DNA from: Flavobacteriales bacterium
GTDB taxonomy: Bacteria > Bacteroidota > Bacteroidia > Flavobacteriales_C > GCA-002722245
Assembly (NCBI GenBank): GCA_023251075.1
Contig: JAHEZM010000002.1
Span: forward strand, 62,001 to 126,000
Length of the DNA stretch: 64,000 nt
Reading direction: 5' to 3'
The translations under genes were made by a program, and so were the position numbers. Below, piece after piece: positions 12,019-26,612 of this stretch. Every line of letters begins with the position of its first letter. Positions within the stretch are counted from its first letter, which is position 1. Under the pieces are notes generated by a model, which saw nothing but the letters and a program-made list of their open reading frames with translations, did not search any database and was not told the origin of the DNA.

Positions 12019-13128
12019 TTATTTTTTTTCGTCTTTCTTTTTTCGTTTGGTAAGGTAGAAAAGAATAGAAAATAATAAAATACAATAGGTGCTAAAAAGT
12101 GCGATTGTTATATAGTTCCAATTGTTAATAAAGTGCAAAATAGCAATGGCCATTACAAGTGATATGGCTGAAATAATACAGAAAACAATAGCTACATGAC
12201 GATCGGTTAGTCCGGCATAAGAGAGATGATGGGTGGTGTGGTCTTTGCCGCCAACGAAAGGACTTTGCCCTCTCATCAAACGGTTTATTGTTACTGTGGT
12301 AGTATCAATGATAGGAAGAATAAACACCAGTAAAGCAGCCAATACTTTTTTGGAAAATGCTATTTCATAATGTTGGTCTACGCCATTCCAGTTTTGATCG
12401 GTACCATTCCAAAATAAAATAATGCCTATAGCAGCCAAAAGCACACCCAAGAACTGACTGCCGGTATCTCCCATATACATTCTGGAGGGGTTCCAGTTAA
12501 AATACAAGAATCCAATTAAAGCGGCTACCTGAACAATACAAATGATGAAAAGTGTTTTCTGACTAGCGAATAAATTTCCGTCGATTAAAATTAAGACAGC
12601 AGCGGTTAAGCATATAAAGATAGATACCGAGGTGGTAATCGCATCCATATTGTCTAACATGTTAATGGAATTCATCATCCCAACCACCCAAAAAATAGTA
12701 AGAGCAATATTTAATATTTGATTGTCGAAGAGATCTATAGTGGTTCCTGTTAATACTAGAATTATTGCACAAAGTAACTGACCTAAAAATTTTAAAAGAG
12801 GTTTAGTATTGTATGCATCATCGGCCAAACCAATCATAAAACCAAGAGAGGAAGCAATTAAAATTCCAATGGTAGTGGCGGTAGCTATTTCGTAATGTTT
12901 GAAAGCGGCAATTACAAAAGATACCAAAAAAAGAATGTAAAATGAAATTCCGCCAAAGGCAGGTTTAGAGGTGCTTCCCCATCTGATAATCGTTCCATCA
13001 TCAATGGTATTACTACGTACTCCTAAAGTTTTAGAAAAATTCAAAAACAAACCATTGATCAAAATAGAAAATCCAATCATCACTATGAAAAGACTCAGCT
13101 GGAAAAGTATTTCATTAATATGTGGCAT
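12019..13128 (-). CDS. Undecaprenyl-phosphate sugar-1-phosphate transferase (WecA/MraY family, GT4-type membrane transferase)
   Basis: Polytopic inner-membrane enzyme (369 residues, about 10-11 TM segments) that transfers a HexNAc-1-phosphate from UDP-sugar to undecaprenyl phosphate, the first step of lipid-linked glycan assembly. Family motifs are GLADDAYNTKP (about 100-110), NSINMLDNMDA (153-163), MYMGDTGSQFLG (from 218) and the His loop GGKDHTTHHLS (293-302). Most relatives have DG rather than DA in the second motif; this is a mild variant. True MraY would be expected in the mur/dcw cluster, so the neighbours (rfbC, Wzc, Wza, GT4) favour a role as initiating transferase for exopolysaccharide or O-antigen. 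It is not the WbaP/PglC type. Confidence 0.85.
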   Translation of the reverse strand: MPHINEILFQLSLFIVMIGFSILINGLFLNFSKTLGVRSNTIDDGTIIRWGSTSKPAFGGISFYILFLVSFVIAAFKHYEIATATTIGILIASSLGFMIGLADDAYNTKPLLKFLGQLLCAIILVLTGTTIDLFDNQILNIALTIFWVVGMMNSINMLDNMDAITTSVSIFICLTAAVLILIDGNLFASQKTLFIICIVQVAALIGFLYFNWNPSRMYMGDTGSQFLGVLLAAIGIILFWNGTDQNWNGVDQHYEIAFSKKVLAALLVFILPIIDTTTVTINRLMRGQSPFVGGKDHTTHHLSYAGLTDRHVAIVFCIISAISLVMAIAILHFINNWNYITIALFSTYCILLFSILFYLTKRKKKDEKK

Positions 13129-13165: not shown

Positions 13166-13708
13166 TTAAAACAAACCTACAAAATCGTTTAGTGCTTTAC
13201 CGAATTTATCTTTTTCCGATAAGATTGGGTTTTCTATTCCCCATTGAATATTTAAAGTGGGATCATTCCACAATAAGCATTGCTCGGATTCTTTATTGTA
13301 AAAATCAGTGCATTTGTAGGAAAATATAGTGTCATCTTCCAAAGTCAAAAAGCCATGTGCAAATCCTTTAGGAATCCAAAGCATTTTATGATTTCCCTCA
13401 CTTATTTCGATAGAGAAGTACTGACCAAAAGTACCCGAATTGCTTCTTAAATCCACTACCACATCCATAATTGATCCTTTAATTACAGAAATAAGTTTTC
13501 CTTGGGTGTGGGGTGGTGTTTGAAAATGAAGACCTCTTAGTGCTCCTTTAGATGATTTTGAAAGATTATCCTGAACAAATTCAACATTGAGATTCAATTC
13601 ATTGAATACTTTTTTGTTATACGATTCAAAAAAATAACCGCGTTGATCAGGAAAAACTTTTGGCTCAACCACCAATAAATCAGAAATCGAACAGGTGTGA
13701 ATTAGCAT
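13166..13708 (-). CDS. rfbC: dTDP-4-dehydrorhamnose 3,5-epimerase
   Basis: Converts dTDP-4-keto-6-deoxyglucose to dTDP-4-keto-L-rhamnose in the dTDP-rhamnose pathway. The 180-residue cupin-fold protein shows the family pattern: FPDQRGYFFESY near residue 19, LRGLHFQ with the catalytic His61, GSIMDVVVDLR, and WIPKGFAHGF at 111-120. Length is typical. The partner genes rfbA, rfbB and rfbD are not in this window, so they must lie elsewhere if the pathway is complete. It directly follows the Wzc kinase gene with adjoining ends. Confidence 0.93.
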   Translation of the reverse strand: MLIHTCSISDLLVVEPKVFPDQRGYFFESYNKKVFNELNLNVEFVQDNLSKSSKGALRGLHFQTPPHTQGKLISVIKGSIMDVVVDLRSNSGTFGQYFSIEISEGNHKMLWIPKGFAHGFLTLEDDTIFSYKCTDFYNKESEQCLLWNDPTLNIQWGIENPILSEKDKFGKALNDFVGLF

Positions 13709-16171
13709 CTATTTACCTTTATTTAGTCCGAAAATCTTTTGAAATATATTTCTTTTCTTCTTTGGTTTCGGTGATTTCTCTTCATAATAACCGTATCCAT
13801 AACCGTATCCGTAACCACCATATCCATATCCGTACCCATATCCGTATCCGTATCCATATCCATACCCATTTCCATAACTGTCTTTTTGTGCTTTGTCGCC
13901 AGCGCCATTTAATATTACCGAAAGATTTTTCACTTTGTTTTCATCTTTGAGGCGATTAATATTTTGCAAGAAAATTTTCTTAGAAACATTTGCTCTTAAT
14001 ATGTATAAAGGATAATCTGCTTTGGAAATCATTGGTAAGGCATCTGTTACTATACCGATAGGGGGGTTATCTATTACAATGATATCATATTTAGATTTTA
14101 ATTCTTCCAATACCTCATCCATTTTAGGGCTAATTACTAACTCTGAAGGGTTTGGAGGAATTGGTCCTGCAGTAATAAAATCTAAATTCTCTAGGGTGCT
14201 CTTTTGTATCGATTCTTCAATGGTAGATTTACCAATAAGAATTGTACTCATTCCAATTATATTGTGTGTATTGAAACCAATATGGGTTTTTGGTTTCCTC
14301 ATATCTAAGTCTATGATGATTACTTTTTTTCCTGAGAAGGCTATAATACCACCTAAGTTAATAGCAATGAAAGTTTTTCCTTCACCACTAATCGTTGACG
14401 TTACAGCAATTACTTTTGAGGATTCTGCACTATTTAAAAATTGTAAATTAGAACGAACAGAACGGAATGCTTCCGTCATTAATGATTTTGGATTTTTATC
14501 TACTAATAATTGAGAAACAGGTACTGATTCTTTGTATTCTGGAATCATTCCTAAGATGATTAAATTTTCCGTGTATTTTAATATGTCTGAAAGAGTAGAA
14601 ACAATGTTGTGAAATAAATATCTAACAACAATAATCGACAGGCCTATTAAGAGTCCTGCTACCATAAAGGAGATATATACTATTCTAGTTCTTGGTTCAA
14701 TAGGTACTTTGTTTTCATAAGCAGCTTCCAGGATATCCGTATTGGCAACAAAACCAGCAACTACCATTTCGTATTCTGATTTCTTTTGAAGCAAGCGCGA
14801 ATAATAATCCTGACTAATTTCATAAAGTCTTTTCGTTTGAAAGAAATCCGAACTTTTATTTTTTTGTGTATCAAGTGCAATGTTAAGATTCGGGATTTTA
14901 CTTTGTCGTAATTTTAGAACAGAAATCTCTTCCTGCATTTTATTTAAAGTAATATCGATGTTTTCTATTAACCCTTTTTTTTCTAATTCTACTCTGTAGT
15001 CAAGTTCTTTAATCGGACCACTATTTTCTTTAAATTGATATTGTAGTTCTAATCGTTTGGAGAGTAGCAACTGTAATTGTTGAATATTTTGTATAAGTGG
15101 AGTAACAATGGGGGATGTTAAAATAGGTGCGTATACATAATTATTAGATTGTTTAAGAAATTTGTTTTTATAATCCCTTAACGCACCATATTCAAAGTCG
15201 AGTAATGCAATTTCATTTTCTAATGCATCCTCATTTTTATTTTGCATATTCTGATAGAAAAGAGGATTTGCCTCAGCAGTTCTTTCTTCTTTTAAAATAC
15301 CGTATGGTTCTAGTTGCTCATATAAGTTGGTTATTTTTTCATTAATGGAGAATAATTGGTTGTTGATGTAGTTAATCATTTGGTTTGCACTCTCTGATTT
15401 TTTTTCCACATTATAATTCAAAAACTCATTGGCGATACTATTAGCTAAGTCGGCACATTTAAGAGCATTGTTTGAAGTGAAGATGATTTCAATGGTTTTT
15501 GCCTGTTCATTAACAACAGTAATATTTAATTCCGACAAATGTTGATTGATTATTCCTTCTTCACTATTCAGAGTAAAGAATAATTGATCTTGAACGTTTA
15601 ATAATTGGTAATAATGAAATTGAGTGGTAGTTATTTTTAGTTCCACTCCAGGTAAACTTGCCCATGAATTAATAGGAAAAATAAATTCATAATGCGTTTC
15701 ATCGAGGTTGTAATTTATTTTAACTTTTTCATCATCCAGAAATTTCACACTAATTGGCGTAAAATACATGGTTTCATTTTTCACTTGAAAATAAACATCA
15801 TAGAAACTAGTTCTGTATTGTTCTGTGTTCAAAAAAGAACCTTGTGAGAAATAATTTACTTTTAATGGTAAATTTTTCAGAGCTCTTTTGAATAAGGTTT
15901 TAGATCTCAAAAGTTCAATTTCCCCGGCAATAGACATTTCGTAAATGTTTTCAAAATTTAAAATTTTGTTTACGTTATTATCATTGCTTCCTAATTTTAC
16001 TACAGTATGAGCCTGATATATTGGTTGAGTATATCTTATGTAAATGAATGCGGAAGTAAAAAAAAGAGTAAGGATCAGTGCAACTATAGGGAAAGATTTT
16101 TTGGAAATTTTTAAAACTAATGATAAGTCGAAATCATCATTTAATATGGATATTTTCTTCTTTGCACTCAT
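13709..16171 (-). CDS. Polysaccharide co-polymerase / BY-type tyrosine autokinase (Wzc family)
   Basis: Inner-membrane protein of 820 residues that controls chain length and export of capsule or EPS together with the Wza-type channel encoded next to it. It has a first TM at about 28-48, a large periplasmic Wzz-type domain with coiled-coil stretches, a second TM around 500-520 (IVYISFMVAGLLIGLSIIVV), then a cytoplasmic BY-kinase domain. That domain has Walker A SGEGKTFIAIN (about 594-604), Walker A' VIIIDLDMRKPKTH and Walker B IIVIDNPP. The C-terminal Tyr cluster, which is the autophosphorylation target in this family, is expanded here into a Tyr-Gly repeat with 15 Tyr in 31 residues, followed by a Lys-rich end. 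The gene start is 7 bases from the Wza gene. Confidence 0.92.
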   Translation of the reverse strand: MSAKKKISILNDDFDLSLVLKISKKSFPIVALILTLFFTSAFIYIRYTQPIYQAHTVVKLGSNDNNVNKILNFENIYEMSIAGEIELLRSKTLFKRALKNLPLKVNYFSQGSFLNTEQYRTSFYDVYFQVKNETMYFTPISVKFLDDEKVKINYNLDETHYEFIFPINSWASLPGVELKITTTQFHYYQLLNVQDQLFFTLNSEEGIINQHLSELNITVVNEQAKTIEIIFTSNNALKCADLANSIANEFLNYNVEKKSESANQMINYINNQLFSINEKITNLYEQLEPYGILKEERTAEANPLFYQNMQNKNEDALENEIALLDFEYGALRDYKNKFLKQSNNYVYAPILTSPIVTPLIQNIQQLQLLLSKRLELQYQFKENSGPIKELDYRVELEKKGLIENIDITLNKMQEEISVLKLRQSKIPNLNIALDTQKNKSSDFFQTKRLYEISQDYYSRLLQKKSEYEMVVAGFVANTDILEAAYENKVPIEPRTRIVYISFMVAGLLIGLSIIVVRYLFHNIVSTLSDILKYTENLIILGMIPEYKESVPVSQLLVDKNPKSLMTEAFRSVRSNLQFLNSAESSKVIAVTSTISGEGKTFIAINLGGIIAFSGKKVIIIDLDMRKPKTHIGFNTHNIIGMSTILIGKSTIEESIQKSTLENLDFITAGPIPPNPSELVISPKMDEVLEELKSKYDIIVIDNPPIGIVTDALPMISKADYPLYILRANVSKKIFLQNINRLKDENKVKNLSVILNGAGDKAQKDSYGNGYGYGYGYGYGYGYGYGGYGYGYGYGYYEEKSPKPKKKRNIFQKIFGLNKGK
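13784..13876 (-). repeat. In-frame hexamer repeat encoding a (Tyr-Gly)n tract
   Basis: Thirty-one codons near the 3' end of the kinase gene read almost entirely as alternating Tyr and Gly (TAT/TAC then GGA/GGT/GGG), with one Asn and one GlyGly break. The 6-bp period could vary in copy number by slippage without loss of frame. Confidence 0.9.
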
Positions 16172-16178
16172 TATTATC

Positions 16179-16988
16179 TTATTTTGATTTCGTTAATAGG
16201 TTGTAAATAAGAAATATACTCAAAATACTAGAAACTAATCCCGTTACTGACGATATGTCCTGTGAAATACTTGTACTATAATTTATTACTGGGTCAATAT
16301 AAATGATGTCATTGGCTTGCATAATGATATCTGCGTTTTTTAATCCATCGATTTTCGAAAGATCAATTAAATAAATAGTTGGATTTTTTAGGTTACCTCT
16401 GATTATTTTAATCTTGTTGGCGTATCCCATTCCGCTCATATTCGAGTTAGTATTGCCCGTAGTACCGCCAATGTTTCCCGCTTTAGCAAGTACTTCAAAG
16501 AGAGTTGTGTTTTCATTTTCAAGAGTAATTTCTGAACCGATAGATCCTCCTTTAAACATAAATACCCTCTTGTTTGAGATCTCCACAATAACAAAGGGAT
16601 TTACAAAGTATGTTTGAAATTTCCCTTCTAATAAAATCTCTATTTCTTTTACGGTTAGTCCTAAAACATCAATTTCACCCAGAACGGGTAACTTGATTTT
16701 GCCATTTGATCTTACTTTACATCTATTGGCTGAGTTATAAGTACCTTCGTTATCATTATCATTAGTTAAACTAATTGATTTAAACCCTTCATTGGTATAT
16801 AATGAAAATTCTATAACGTCGTTTACAGCAATTTTGTAAGGTTCTATTTTTACCGAATCAGGAAACTTTGCAAATGGATAATCTTTTGGTGTTTTTAGCA
16901 TCCTTCCAGGATTCATTGTGATACACGATGATAATCCACTTATCACCATTACCACCACCACAAAAAGTTTTAAAATTTTATATTTCAC
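16179..16988 (-). CDS. Polysaccharide export outer-membrane lipoprotein (Wza family)
   Basis: Outer-membrane export channel subunit, 269 residues. A lipoprotein signal ends at Cys22 (GLSSC). The polysaccharide export domain follows (YKIAVNDVIEFSLYTNEGF ... GKIKLPVLGEIDVLGLTVKEIEILLEGKF), then an SLBB-like part (RVFMFKGGSIGSEITLENENTTLFEVLAKAG) and IYIDPVINYS. It ends with a hydrophobic segment of about 20 residues (SVTGLVSSILSIFLIYNLL), a plausible outer-membrane helix as in Wza. It is shorter than E. coli Wza, as is usual in Bacteroidota. It overlaps the upstream GT gene by 4 bases and pairs with the adjacent Wzc kinase. Confidence 0.88.
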   Translation of the reverse strand: MKYKILKLFVVVVMVISGLSSCITMNPGRMLKTPKDYPFAKFPDSVKIEPYKIAVNDVIEFSLYTNEGFKSISLTNDNDNEGTYNSANRCKVRSNGKIKLPVLGEIDVLGLTVKEIEILLEGKFQTYFVNPFVIVEISNKRVFMFKGGSIGSEITLENENTTLFEVLAKAGNIGGTTGNTNSNMSGMGYANKIKIIRGNLKNPTIYLIDLSKIDGLKNADIIMQANDIIYIDPVINYSTSISQDISSVTGLVSSILSIFLIYNLLTKSK

Positions 16989-18169
16989 TTCAATAAAGAG
17001 CTATAAAGTTTATCAATATCATTTACCAATCGGGTATAGTGAAATTTTTCCTTAACACTTTCCCAGCCCGATGCCTGCATTTCTGTTCTCAATTGGTCGT
17101 CTTCAATCAATCGTAATAAATTGCTACTGTACTTCTCTAAATCTCCCACCTCACTCAATAATCCTGTTTTCCCTTCTACCACTATATTTTCAACTCCTCC
17201 CACCTTTGTGCTAATTACTGGATTATTAGCAGCTTGTGCTTCAATTAAACTTACAGGGGTCCCCTCGTTTAAAGAACTTAAAGCTACTATATCTACACCG
17301 GCATTAACAACATCGATCTCCTTAAGCCATGATGTAAACGTAAGACTACATTTGGACTTTTCAAAATTTTCGGTACATATGCTCATTCCCAGCTCTTTAG
17401 CTAAAGATTCGATCTTCAGTCTATCTTCTCCATCTCCCACGATTATTGCTCTGATTTTCTTATTCGTGTTATCACTCACTTTTTTCCAGGCTCTCACAAA
17501 TAGTTCATGATTTTTGATGGGAACAATTCTTCCTATAATTCCTACCGCTATTTCATCGTCATCAATATTGTACTTTTTACGGAAAGCTTTTCTTTTTTCA
17601 TCGTAATTTTCTTGAAATCTACTTAAATCAAAGCCTAAAGGAATGACTTCTATTTTTTCAGGGGGACAAATTCTGTGAATGGTTCCCAATTCATATTTCT
17701 GACGCTCACTGATAGCAATTATTTTAGTGCTTTTAGCGGCCAAATTTCTTTCAATATTTTTGAAAACAGAAGTCTTTGTTTTATTAAAATAGGAATGAAA
17801 AACGTGTCCGTGAAAGGTATGTAAAATGACAGGAACCTTTGCATTATAAGCGGCTAATCTACCAATGGTTCCCGCTTTAGCAGCATGAGTATGTACTATA
17901 TCCGGTTTGTACTCGTCGATGATATTTTTGATTTTTCGATATACAAAATAATCATTGAAGGGGTTGATAGATCTTCGCATTTCAGGAATAATCAAGGGTT
18001 TTAAACCCAAATCGTTCAAAATATGCATAGAGCTTTCCTCATGATCTTCCTTCTCGCCGCCAATTAAAAGTGTTTCGTATTTCGAGGGTAGATGCTTGGT
18101 TAAATAAGCCGCATTGAAGGTTGGTCCTCCTAAATTAAAACGGTTTATTATCCTTAAAATTTTTGGCAT
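16985..18169 (-). CDS. Glycosyltransferase family 4 (GT-B fold)
   Basis: Cytoplasmic glycosyltransferase of 394 residues using a nucleotide-sugar donor with retention. The N-terminal acceptor domain has NRFNLGGPTFNAAYL and DIVHTHAAKAGTIGRLAAY. The C-terminal donor domain has VGIIGRIVPIKNH, AIIVGDGEDR and the GT4 signature SSLNEGTPVSLIEAQAANN followed by GGVENIV. It resembles the enzymes of EPS clusters that follow the lipid-linked first sugar. It ends 4 bases inside the Wza gene, so translation is probably coupled. The linkage made cannot be predicted. Confidence 0.88.
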   Translation of the reverse strand: MPKILRIINRFNLGGPTFNAAYLTKHLPSKYETLLIGGEKEDHEESSMHILNDLGLKPLIIPEMRRSINPFNDYFVYRKIKNIIDEYKPDIVHTHAAKAGTIGRLAAYNAKVPVILHTFHGHVFHSYFNKTKTSVFKNIERNLAAKSTKIIAISERQKYELGTIHRICPPEKIEVIPLGFDLSRFQENYDEKRKAFRKKYNIDDDEIAVGIIGRIVPIKNHELFVRAWKKVSDNTNKKIRAIIVGDGEDRLKIESLAKELGMSICTENFEKSKCSLTFTSWLKEIDVVNAGVDIVALSSLNEGTPVSLIEAQAANNPVISTKVGGVENIVVEGKTGLLSEVGDLEKYSSNLLRLIEDDQLRTEMQASGWESVKEKFHYTRLVNDIDKLYSSLLK

Positions 18170-24446: not shown

Positions 24447-26612
24447 TTACTTTTCCTCTTTTATTTTAGCACCTATTTTTTTTAGAATACTCTTCTTGTT
24501 TCCGTAAATAAATTCTCCTCCTTTTTTGATTATTATTTTGGCACCCAATCCCATTCTTAGTTTACTATTTTGATCTAAAATAAGTGAGCAATTTTCTTCT
24601 ATAATTATTTTTGAAAAGGGCTTCATTTCAATAATTCCTTTGTTAGATGTTAAAATGGTTTTTTCTGTCCAGCCAATATATTTTTCATTGTTGTGGGCTG
24701 GTGTATGTAATACAGGAGTACTTGCTTTACTAAGTGTAATATTTACTTTTTTGTTTACTATCAAAGAAGGTTTTTTAACATCAAAATCATTTTCATGTAA
24801 TTCAATATTCCCACACCACCTCACGTCTTTATCAACGTTGTAATTGTTCCAAATCACTTGTGCTTTAATACCTCCATCACTCAGCTCTTCCAGTATTTTT
24901 ATTTGGAGTCCGTTAAGGTGAATGGTTCTGTTTTCGTAAGAAGGAAAAACTCCATTTTTTTGAAAATTCTGATTGTATTCGTAATTAGAAGTATAGGTGT
25001 ATATTGTAATGGGAGAGGGGTTGGTAGAAATAGAAATTTCTGTATTTCCGGTGGCCTTGCAAAAAGCATCTTTCCAATCTCCATTGTGTTGGTAATAGTG
25101 CACTACTTTTCCGTTTTCAATTTCGCTTAAAGTGCATTTGGGTATTTCGTTGGGTTGAATAATAGAATCGTGATTGCTATCAAAAATGATGGTTAAATCA
25201 TTGAGTCCGGTGAATGAATTTGTAATACTATTTTTCTTATCTACCGGAATATTGGCATTGTTCCAATTGCACTCAATCCACTGACCTTTTTGCGTGCTGT
25301 CTTCAGCAATTTTAAAATCGTAATTTCCTTCCGCACTCAGCGGATACATCCATCCGGCTAATCCATTTCTACTTTTGGTATCGGAAGAATAAATTTCATT
25401 ATTTCCTTCTTTTTGATCTTTACCCACCTGAATGTAAGCGTAAATTCCGGGTGTTCCTTTAGGATATTTTCCATGGTTGGTGTTGTTGCATTCAGTTTCA
25501 CACCATTGATCTAATTCATGTCTCATCTGGTGATTTTCTAACCATAAATATTGATTTTTCACATCACCTTCTTTTTGCCATAAGATATGTGGCAGATGTA
25601 TTCTGAGAGCATCTCCGCTAGTGATAAAATCGCGTAAAATAAAAGTTTGTGAGGCAATGGAATCATTCAGTTTTATATCACCATTGATCTCTTTTTGGTT
25701 TTCATCTAGTGCGCTGATCAACATAGATTTTTCGGGGTTTTTCCAATTCATCATATCTCTATCCCAGGCGCAGGGAGTTTGGGTGGCAGCGTGAAACTGA
25801 CCGGTAACACCCCATGTAGCAGGTTGATTCATAAAAGTATGATTTCCTCTACCGCCCGATGAATGCCAATGGTTGCCTCCGAAAATTCCATGAAGATGTT
25901 CGGCTATAGTGATCATCTCTGCCGATTTATTGATGATGGTGCAATTGAAGGAAGATAAATTATTTACTCCTTTGAAGCTTAAAAAATTTCCACTATCGTT
26001 GGGATGAACACCATAACCCGAATAATCGATGGTGTTTTGATTCACAATAAAACGATTGTTTCGCCATACGATGTACAACAAATCTATTTTACCATCGGGC
26101 TGGTTGAGTTTTGCTTGTCCGGGTGGAGTGGGCGTCCACTGATCAAATTTCTCCAAAGGAATTCCATTGGCAGAAGTCAATATTTCGTTTTCGTACAATT
26201 CATTTATTTTTTTAGTGATTTCGGCAATTCCTGAGCTTCCCATTTTCACTTCCGAACAAGGTAAACTAATAACATAGGGAAAATAATCTCCTAACATTTC
26301 ATAAGCACCAAATGATGCAGTGTGGTAATATTTAGTAATAGCTCCTTTGGGGGAGCGGGTAATTTCATGATCAAAAAAATAATCGGCATTGTTCGGAATT
26401 TGTGTTACTCCATTGCTGTCTTTTGGCCATTGCCCGTTTAGGTTGTCGGCTAAGTTTTGCGGACAAGTTCCTTTCGAAAAATCAATTTCTGCATAAACCA
26501 CTAAGGTGTATAAAGTTCCTTTGGTGGGTACACTTACACCGTTACTAATGCTGAGTTGAGCAAAGCTATTAAAGCAAAGAAAAAAGAGTGAAATAAAATA
26601 CCATGCTCTCAT
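24447..26612 (-). CDS. Secreted protein with degenerate M6-metalloprotease-like core
   Basis: Exported protein of 721 residues with a signal peptide ending NSFAQ (about 19). The N-terminal half resembles M6-type secreted proteases in layout: LVVYAEIDF near the start, YFPYVISLP, a DGKIDLLYIVW segment and a GVTGQFHAATQTPCAWDRDMMNW region. Where HExxH is expected it reads EHLHGIFGGNHWH (238-250), with His239, 241, 248 and 250 but no HExxH. The C-terminal part has beta-helix-like runs (KIIIEENCSLILDQNSKLRMG) and no recognisable T9SS sorting domain. It may be a non-catalytic relative or use another metal arrangement. Substrate and export route are unknown. It precedes lpdA with a 48-base gap. Confidence 0.65.
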   Translation of the reverse strand: MRAWYFISLFFLCFNSFAQLSISNGVSVPTKGTLYTLVVYAEIDFSKGTCPQNLADNLNGQWPKDSNGVTQIPNNADYFFDHEITRSPKGAITKYYHTASFGAYEMLGDYFPYVISLPCSEVKMGSSGIAEITKKINELYENEILTSANGIPLEKFDQWTPTPPGQAKLNQPDGKIDLLYIVWRNNRFIVNQNTIDYSGYGVHPNDSGNFLSFKGVNNLSSFNCTIINKSAEMITIAEHLHGIFGGNHWHSSGGRGNHTFMNQPATWGVTGQFHAATQTPCAWDRDMMNWKNPEKSMLISALDENQKEINGDIKLNDSIASQTFILRDFITSGDALRIHLPHILWQKEGDVKNQYLWLENHQMRHELDQWCETECNNTNHGKYPKGTPGIYAYIQVGKDQKEGNNEIYSSDTKSRNGLAGWMYPLSAEGNYDFKIAEDSTQKGQWIECNWNNANIPVDKKNSITNSFTGLNDLTIIFDSNHDSIIQPNEIPKCTLSEIENGKVVHYYQHNGDWKDAFCKATGNTEISISTNPSPITIYTYTSNYEYNQNFQKNGVFPSYENRTIHLNGLQIKILEELSDGGIKAQVIWNNYNVDKDVRWCGNIELHENDFDVKKPSLIVNKKVNITLSKASTPVLHTPAHNNEKYIGWTEKTILTSNKGIIEMKPFSKIIIEENCSLILDQNSKLRMGLGAKIIIKKGGEFIYGNKKSILKKIGAKIKEEK

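Follow-up and report, generated by a model that had tools for sequence, protein, structure and literature searches.

Work on the kinase Wzc of E. coli, as set out in the extracts of Yang et al. 2025 (PMC11986026) used here, suggested that tyrosines of its tail are phosphorylated by a ratchet that depends on YxY spacing, and that the Wzc ring comes apart once a fourth phosphate is added. Studies cited in the same extracts (PMC11986026) suggested that the extent of tail phosphorylation matters and that no single Tyr does. Glu675, an acidic residue of the pocket, was proposed there to reject phosphotyrosine (PMC11986026); an earlier structure paper on this protein, also represented here by extracts, is PMC8285477. 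Taxon names beginning with Bacteroid- or Flavobact- are absent from PMC11986026. In P. gingivalis, according to extracts of PMC6759763, the kinase Ptk1 is phosphorylated on Y775, Y782, Y784, Y786, Y788 and Y790, five of which lie at spacing two, and is dephosphorylated by the PHP phosphatase Php1, while Ltp1 also acts on it.

The locus described here lies in a window of 64,000 nucleotides of a Flavobacteriales bacterium (class Bacteroidia; contig JAHEZM010000002.1), the window being the whole stretch of DNA that was analysed. With a probability of roughly 75%, its focal gene encodes the principal BY-kinase (Wzc type, PCP-2a) of a cluster for the export of an exopolysaccharide or capsule, and the Tyr-Gly tract at its end is a long, class-typical autophosphorylation tail, an extended YxY ladder, that is kept by selection. 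The gene, its domains and its motifs are as follows; class kinases are those of the survey of the class given further on.

13709 to 16171, minus strand: BY-kinase / polysaccharide co-polymerase gene (Wzc type, PCP-2a), with an ATG start, 820 aa and the Pfam matches Wzz, GNVR and AAA_31
15869 to 16138, minus strand: Wzz chain-length domain, residues 12-101 (Pfam PF02706)
14618 to 14839, minus strand: GNVR domain, residues 445-518 (Pfam PF13807)
14453 to 14473, minus strand: EX2RX2R oligomerisation motif, EAFRSVR, residues 567-573; E, R and R are found in 74/74 dereplicated class kinases and in Wzc
14372 to 14398, minus strand: Walker A, STISGEGKT, residues 592-600 (from the sequence)
14291 to 14323, minus strand: Walker A', VIIIDLDMRKP, residues 617-627; equivalents of D564 and R566 in 74/74 class kinases
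14060 to 14086, minus strand: Walker B, DIIVIDNPP, residues 696-704; equivalent of D642 in 74/74 class kinases
13970 to 13996, minus strand: RANVSKKIF, aligned without gaps between two anchors to the tyrosine-pocket strand of Wzc; the Glu675 equivalent is Phe734

The focal kinase scores 165.4 bits against TIGR01007 ('polysaccharide biosynthesis tyrosine autokinase'), above the curated cut-off of 108.05, and solved E. coli Wzc chains match it in a structure-sequence search (E 4e-50). Its score against the Wzc equivalog NF008568 of NCBIfam is 217.8 bits, below the cut-off of 1068. By these scores it belongs to the family of Wzc but is not the E. coli orthologue. The periplasmic Wzz/GNVR part and the kinase form a single chain, as PCP-2a proteins do, and alignment to Wzc places Walker A, A' and B and EX2RX2R all in the focal protein. 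Wzc of E. coli (K30, K-12) shares with it the Wzz/GNVR part plus kinase, EX2RX2R, the Walker motifs and a C-terminal YxY Tyr cluster. However, the K-12 tail has six Tyr and the focal tail 15, wzb adjoins wzc whereas no phosphatase gene adjoins the focal kinase, and the pocket residue is Glu675 in the one and Phe734 in the other. Split kinases of the Staphylococcus aureus CapAB / CpsD type match in the kinase domain (2ved, 3bfv, 4jmp) but consist of two chains with short tails (4-6 Tyr in three plasmid kinases), whereas the focal kinase is one chain with 15 Tyr; on Bacilli plasmids, CpsB adjoins the CpsD-type kinase. An earlier note on this DNA, made from the sequence, had named a Wzc-type BY-kinase, and the Pfam domains, the TIGR01007 score and the adjoining Wza-like exporter bear it out.

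The genes on either side of the kinase are the following.

16179 to 16988, minus strand: Wza-like polysaccharide export protein (Poly_export), the upstream partner (Pfam PF02563)
16985 to 18169, minus strand: glycosyltransferase group 1, in the same operon-like run (Pfam)
13166 to 13708, minus strand: dTDP-4-dehydrorhamnose 3,5-epimerase (RmlC), abutting the kinase stop codon (Pfam PF00908)
12019 to 13128, minus strand: MraY/WecA-type glycosyltransferase family 4, likely the initiating phosphoglycosyltransferase (Pfam PF00953)

An asparagine synthase gene also lies in this neighbourhood. By their predicted products, the surrounding genes make up an exopolysaccharide or capsule cluster. The exporter at 16179-16988 provides the linked Wza-type partner that characterizes PCP-2a proteins, and a Wza-like relative was present in 39 of the 40 kinase loci of at least 6 kb. 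Family and neighbourhood together suggest that the focal kinase controls polysaccharide polymerisation. The source genome encodes both a CpsB_CapC phosphatase (L142:1429-2178), directly behind two sugar-nucleotide genes (epimerase/dehydratase-like, named by eye), and an LMW-PTP (LMWPc), each on a contig other than the kinase's. CpsB_CapC phosphatases were found in 47 of 60 class genomes, and in at least five class genomes (G022, G034, G051, G056 and G065) the coordinates place this gene immediately downstream of a kinase. Ltp1 of P. gingivalis is an LMW-type phosphatase. Ptk1, known here by the sites in the published extracts, resembles the focal kinase in class and in Tyr at spacing two, and the phosphatases acting on it are one PHP and one LMW enzyme; it differs in having six mapped phosphosites against 15 focal Tyr, and in that php1 adjoins ptk1. 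Elsewhere in the window, 24447-26612 (minus strand) encodes a protein of 721 aa that seems to carry a signal sequence and matches no Pfam family.

The end of the focal protein is built as follows.

13784 to 13876, minus strand: Tyr-Gly ladder, residues 766-796, 15 Tyr (by translation)
13778 to 13789, minus strand: ladder end YYEE, the class motif of YY plus acidic; a loose YY-plus-acidic pattern is found in 99/107 class kinases
13712 to 13783, minus strand: Lys/Arg-rich C-terminal end past the ladder, residues 797-820 (by translation)

Read on the minus strand, 13784-13876 is YGNGYGYGYGYGYGYGYGYGGYGYGYGYGYY, 31 codons for 15 Tyr, 15 Gly and 1 Asn, and translation thus confirms the near-perfect alternation with 15 Tyr that had been noticed there. 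The peptide is YGNG(YG)8G(YG)4YY, at the C-terminus of the 820-aa kinase, with Tyr at 766, at 770-784 (eight, spacing 2), at 787-795 (five, spacing 2) and at 796. Its register is interrupted twice, by Asn (NG) and by Gly-Gly (GG), and a Tyr at both i and i-2, the YxY arrangement, recurs in two GG-separated registers of 8 + 5 Tyr. It is the sole Y/G run of at least eight residues in the six frames of the window, and within the source genome (GGNTAY)6 occurs in the focal tail only, as three overlapping matches (G000:C39:75820-75867). Lys/Arg-rich C-termini were also seen by eye in many relatives.

How widespread such tails are was surveyed in 107 kinases from 109 loci of the class, all found by protein similarity and not a random sample. 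Ten of the loci belong to the family and 21 are further top matches; 40 were hand-picked over many families, 30 were taken from 48 low-scoring genomes and eight are of one genus. Two loci were omitted: L151, which lacks a kinase ORF, and L084 (genome G064), whose kinase gene is broken across several frames and is a pseudogene or an assembly error. Loci L112-L141, found via the YG pattern, were kept outside all frequency counts and inside the pair table (133 kinases), and in this survey and that of other classes the tail start was extrapolated where a match ended early. A search of the contig collection for related loci returned one true relative, which is locus L003.

A YG-tailed kinase was found in 10/10 genomes of the order (two genera). 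Tail Tyr numbers in the 107 class kinases have a median of 12 (range 4-25), with at least 15 in 29 of them, and the longest YG run has a median of 8 (range 1-17). Runs of at least three YG occur in 97/107, and in 64/74 after dereplication at 75% core identity; the exceptions are mostly Tyr-rich tails without alternation (L098, L101, L105 and L108) and short ones with four Tyr (L085 and L089). In 78% of cases the next Tyr follows at a distance of exactly two residues, versus 25% in shuffles of the same stretch, a figure for 85 kinases, 22 having been lost to the motif filter. Relatives L021, L028 and L029 are like the focal kinase in domains, tail and YY-acidic end, with 17-18 Tyr of their own, and many YG-tailed class relatives have an uninterrupted ladder, whereas that of the focal kinase is broken by NG and GG. 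Because nearly all related bacteria examined carry one, the focal ladder is the local norm and no strain oddity, and the focal gene is an ordinary member of the class kinases with long Tyr-Gly tails. The earlier view of the tail as exceptional was rejected on the 97 of 107 class relatives with YG runs of at least three. The accompanying statement that BY-kinases usually have four to seven Tyr holds roughly outside Bacteroidota (six in K-12, 0-8 in plasmid kinases) but not in this class (median 12, n=107).

Elsewhere in the phylum, in other classes, 6/30 kinases reach a YG run of three or more, and many end in a YGSYYKYYYYY-like tail; in L159-L168, from one such class, the tail has the form YGSYYKYYYYY, which is Tyr-rich and conserved but follows a different pattern. 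Thirteen plasmid kinases from outside Bacteroidota were hand-picked from a listing of 60 out of 810 records; their tails contain 0-8 Tyr, and their YG runs range from 0 to 5, reaching three or more in two (Cereibacter 3, Sphingobium 5). (GGNTAY)6 was found in 44/296 genomes of the phylum, and 42 of the 43 tracts read lie in a kinase ORF, as identified with a kinase query from which the tail was left out; the remaining one is in an ORF of 33 aa close to the edge of a contig. That the repeat might act as DNA was considered and dropped, because 42/43 of these tracts belong to one gene family and their silent sites vary freely. A search of the open-access literature found no description of a Tyr-Gly tail on bacterial kinases, and an earlier description is possible in subscription papers, which lay outside it.

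If the tract is an extended YxY ladder, kinase subunits would assemble into a ring in which the tail of each enters the active site of its neighbour, and Tyr would be phosphorylated one by one, from the C-terminal YY towards the N-terminus. Small flexible residues set between the Tyr would supply the YxY spacing, so that the Tyr two upstream is poised for the next step. Phosphate build-up would loosen the ring, a CpsB-type or low-molecular-weight phosphatase would reset it, and this cycling would drive the Wzy polymerase and export via the Wza-like partner. The ladder peptide would be kept by selection, with its length shifting slowly through gain or loss of YG units. The extracts at hand describe multi-site phosphorylation in P. 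gingivalis and the ratchet and ring disassembly in E. coli, and by analogy with these the source organism probably has the phosphorylation, the ring and the role in polysaccharide.

That earlier note had also proposed that the tract tunes the phosphate load and acts as a graded switch. The first part is in line with the multiple phosphorylation of Ptk1 (PMC6759763) and with the importance of its extent in E. coli (PMC11986026), as far as the extracts go. The second is not, since those of PMC6759763 report Phos-tag gels of Ptk1 in which discrete intermediates are absent, and a threshold favoured by the authors.

Several points weigh against an extended ratchet. The Glu675 equivalent is Phe in the focal protein and in 78/105 class kinases with ungapped spacing, and acidic in none, by sequence alignment; the focal protein thus has no acidic pocket residue like that of the Wzc ratchet. 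As the residue is mostly Phe, the E. coli ratchet chemistry cannot transfer unchanged. Should a structure bear out the alignment, this pocket would need other means of selecting Tyr. Furthermore, the focal ladder breaks at YGGY after five in-register Tyr, counted from the end, and fewer than four in-register Tyr from the end are found in 50/107 relatives, a count that changes with the treatment of the final YY and is given as a caution only. Kinase and both phosphatase genes are on different contigs of the source genome. Finally, four phosphates undo the E. coli ring, in the published extracts, which leaves 12-15 Tyr unexplained.

The number of YG units might be a molecular counter, which we regard as unlikely. 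Many steps through the neighbour's site would then precede ring opening, and repeat number would set the duration and precision of a polymerase run; species with 4-25 Tyr would form a series of chain-length rulers, and YGGY breaks would be pauses. If so, the relative spread over N equal sequential steps would be ~1/sqrt(N), falling from about 0.5 for 4 steps to about 0.27 for 14.

The tract's composition may resemble that of the Tyr/Gly low-complexity stickers of condensate proteins. Tyr-Tyr stacking might cluster kinases at export sites, with phosphorylation dissolving the contacts, and a tract far longer than the four phosphates said in the published extracts to undo the E. coli ring would suit such a role. 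The tail function published for this family, in the same limited material, is that of a kinase substrate, and we consider an aromatic sticker distinctly improbable.

It is also very unlikely that the tail is neutral, low-complexity filler, in which any flexible Tyr-containing sequence suffices and Tyr and Gly alternate only as a mutational leftover of repeats. Tail length and composition do vary, as in L098 and L101, which have many Tyr without alternation, and in the YYKYYYYY-type tails of other classes. However, the Tyr spacing far exceeds that of shuffles (78% of Tyr pairs at spacing two vs 25%), the alternation of codons speaks against recent mutational repeats, and the peptide stays fixed under silent change. 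In eight pairs of related species, five of them from one genus, 20-28 residues of the tail are identical although 10-17 codons differ silently. Identical peptides despite so many silent differences indicate that the amino acids of the ladder are under selection, as expected of an extended YxY ladder.

Least probable, and very much so, is a variable switch driven by slippage, in which a 6-bp repeat changes its unit number fast within a population, so that cells differ in tail length and in polysaccharide. The 13 YG units of the focal ladder draw on 5 hexamers, at most 2 identical ones stand in a row, and the top-scoring period in Tandem Repeats Finder is 18 bp. A pure 6-bp repeat was therefore rejected for the focal gene, and the tract is not a pure short tandem repeat of the phase-variable kind. 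In 46 dereplicated tracts, adjacent YG units use the same hexamer 67 times versus 88.6±7.3 in codon shuffles within the tract (1/1000 shuffles as low), whereas units two apart are identical 101 times versus 78.7±6.8 and units three apart 90 times versus 68.8±6.4 (0/1000 each), with shared ancestry not fully modelled by these shuffles. Such depletion of identical neighbours is the opposite of recent 6-bp slippage and contradicts the claim that the repeat is prone to it. The 12- and 18-bp excess fits old duplications of blocks of two to three units, which would favour slippage in the past, or selection against pure repeats.

Tail length does differ between species, which agrees with the change of length that had been proposed, though not with a slippage-prone repeat behind it. 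Within the focal genus, the tails of the five species carry 15, 12, 11, 11 and 12 Tyr. Of the 16 pairs whose kinase cores are 90% identical or more, 11 agree in Tyr number, nine of those 11 being from one genus; counted by eye per independent lineage, in species pairs with one genome per species, three of eight are unchanged and five changed by 1-2 Tyr, which speaks for slippage. Against it, both peptide and length remain constant across species in the pairs with 10-17 silent differences. A kinase on Bacteroides plasmids, the one relative represented by several strains, is identical in 20/21 strain records over 507 bp including the tail, and the 21st (90.7% identity) aligns in one piece with net length unchanged; this is a weak test, because the tract is interrupted and recently spread. 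L189 and related loci on plasmids of Bacteroides/Parabacteroides, many of them ~98 kb long, share the same gene end, identical over 507 bp, across many gut species; in L189 a CpsB phosphatase gene adjoins the kinase, and the plasmid pattern was read as recent spread of a polysaccharide locus. In family f78 of another class (L203, L204, L205 and L206), tails consist of pure hexamers (6/6, 8/9 or 9/9 identical units). Slippage therefore acts in some relatives, unlike in the focal gene, and strain variation would be better sought in that family.

In short, the observation of the tract was right, and the exceptional, slippage-tuned graded switch built on it is not supported. Phe at the Glu675 equivalent suggests that an acidic residue in the pocket, as in the E. 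coli ratchet, is not universal. For the question of how Wzc-type kinases set chain length, the class offers natural variants in its ladders of differing length. These variants let one ask whether it is the number of phosphates or the length of the ladder that sets the length of the chain.
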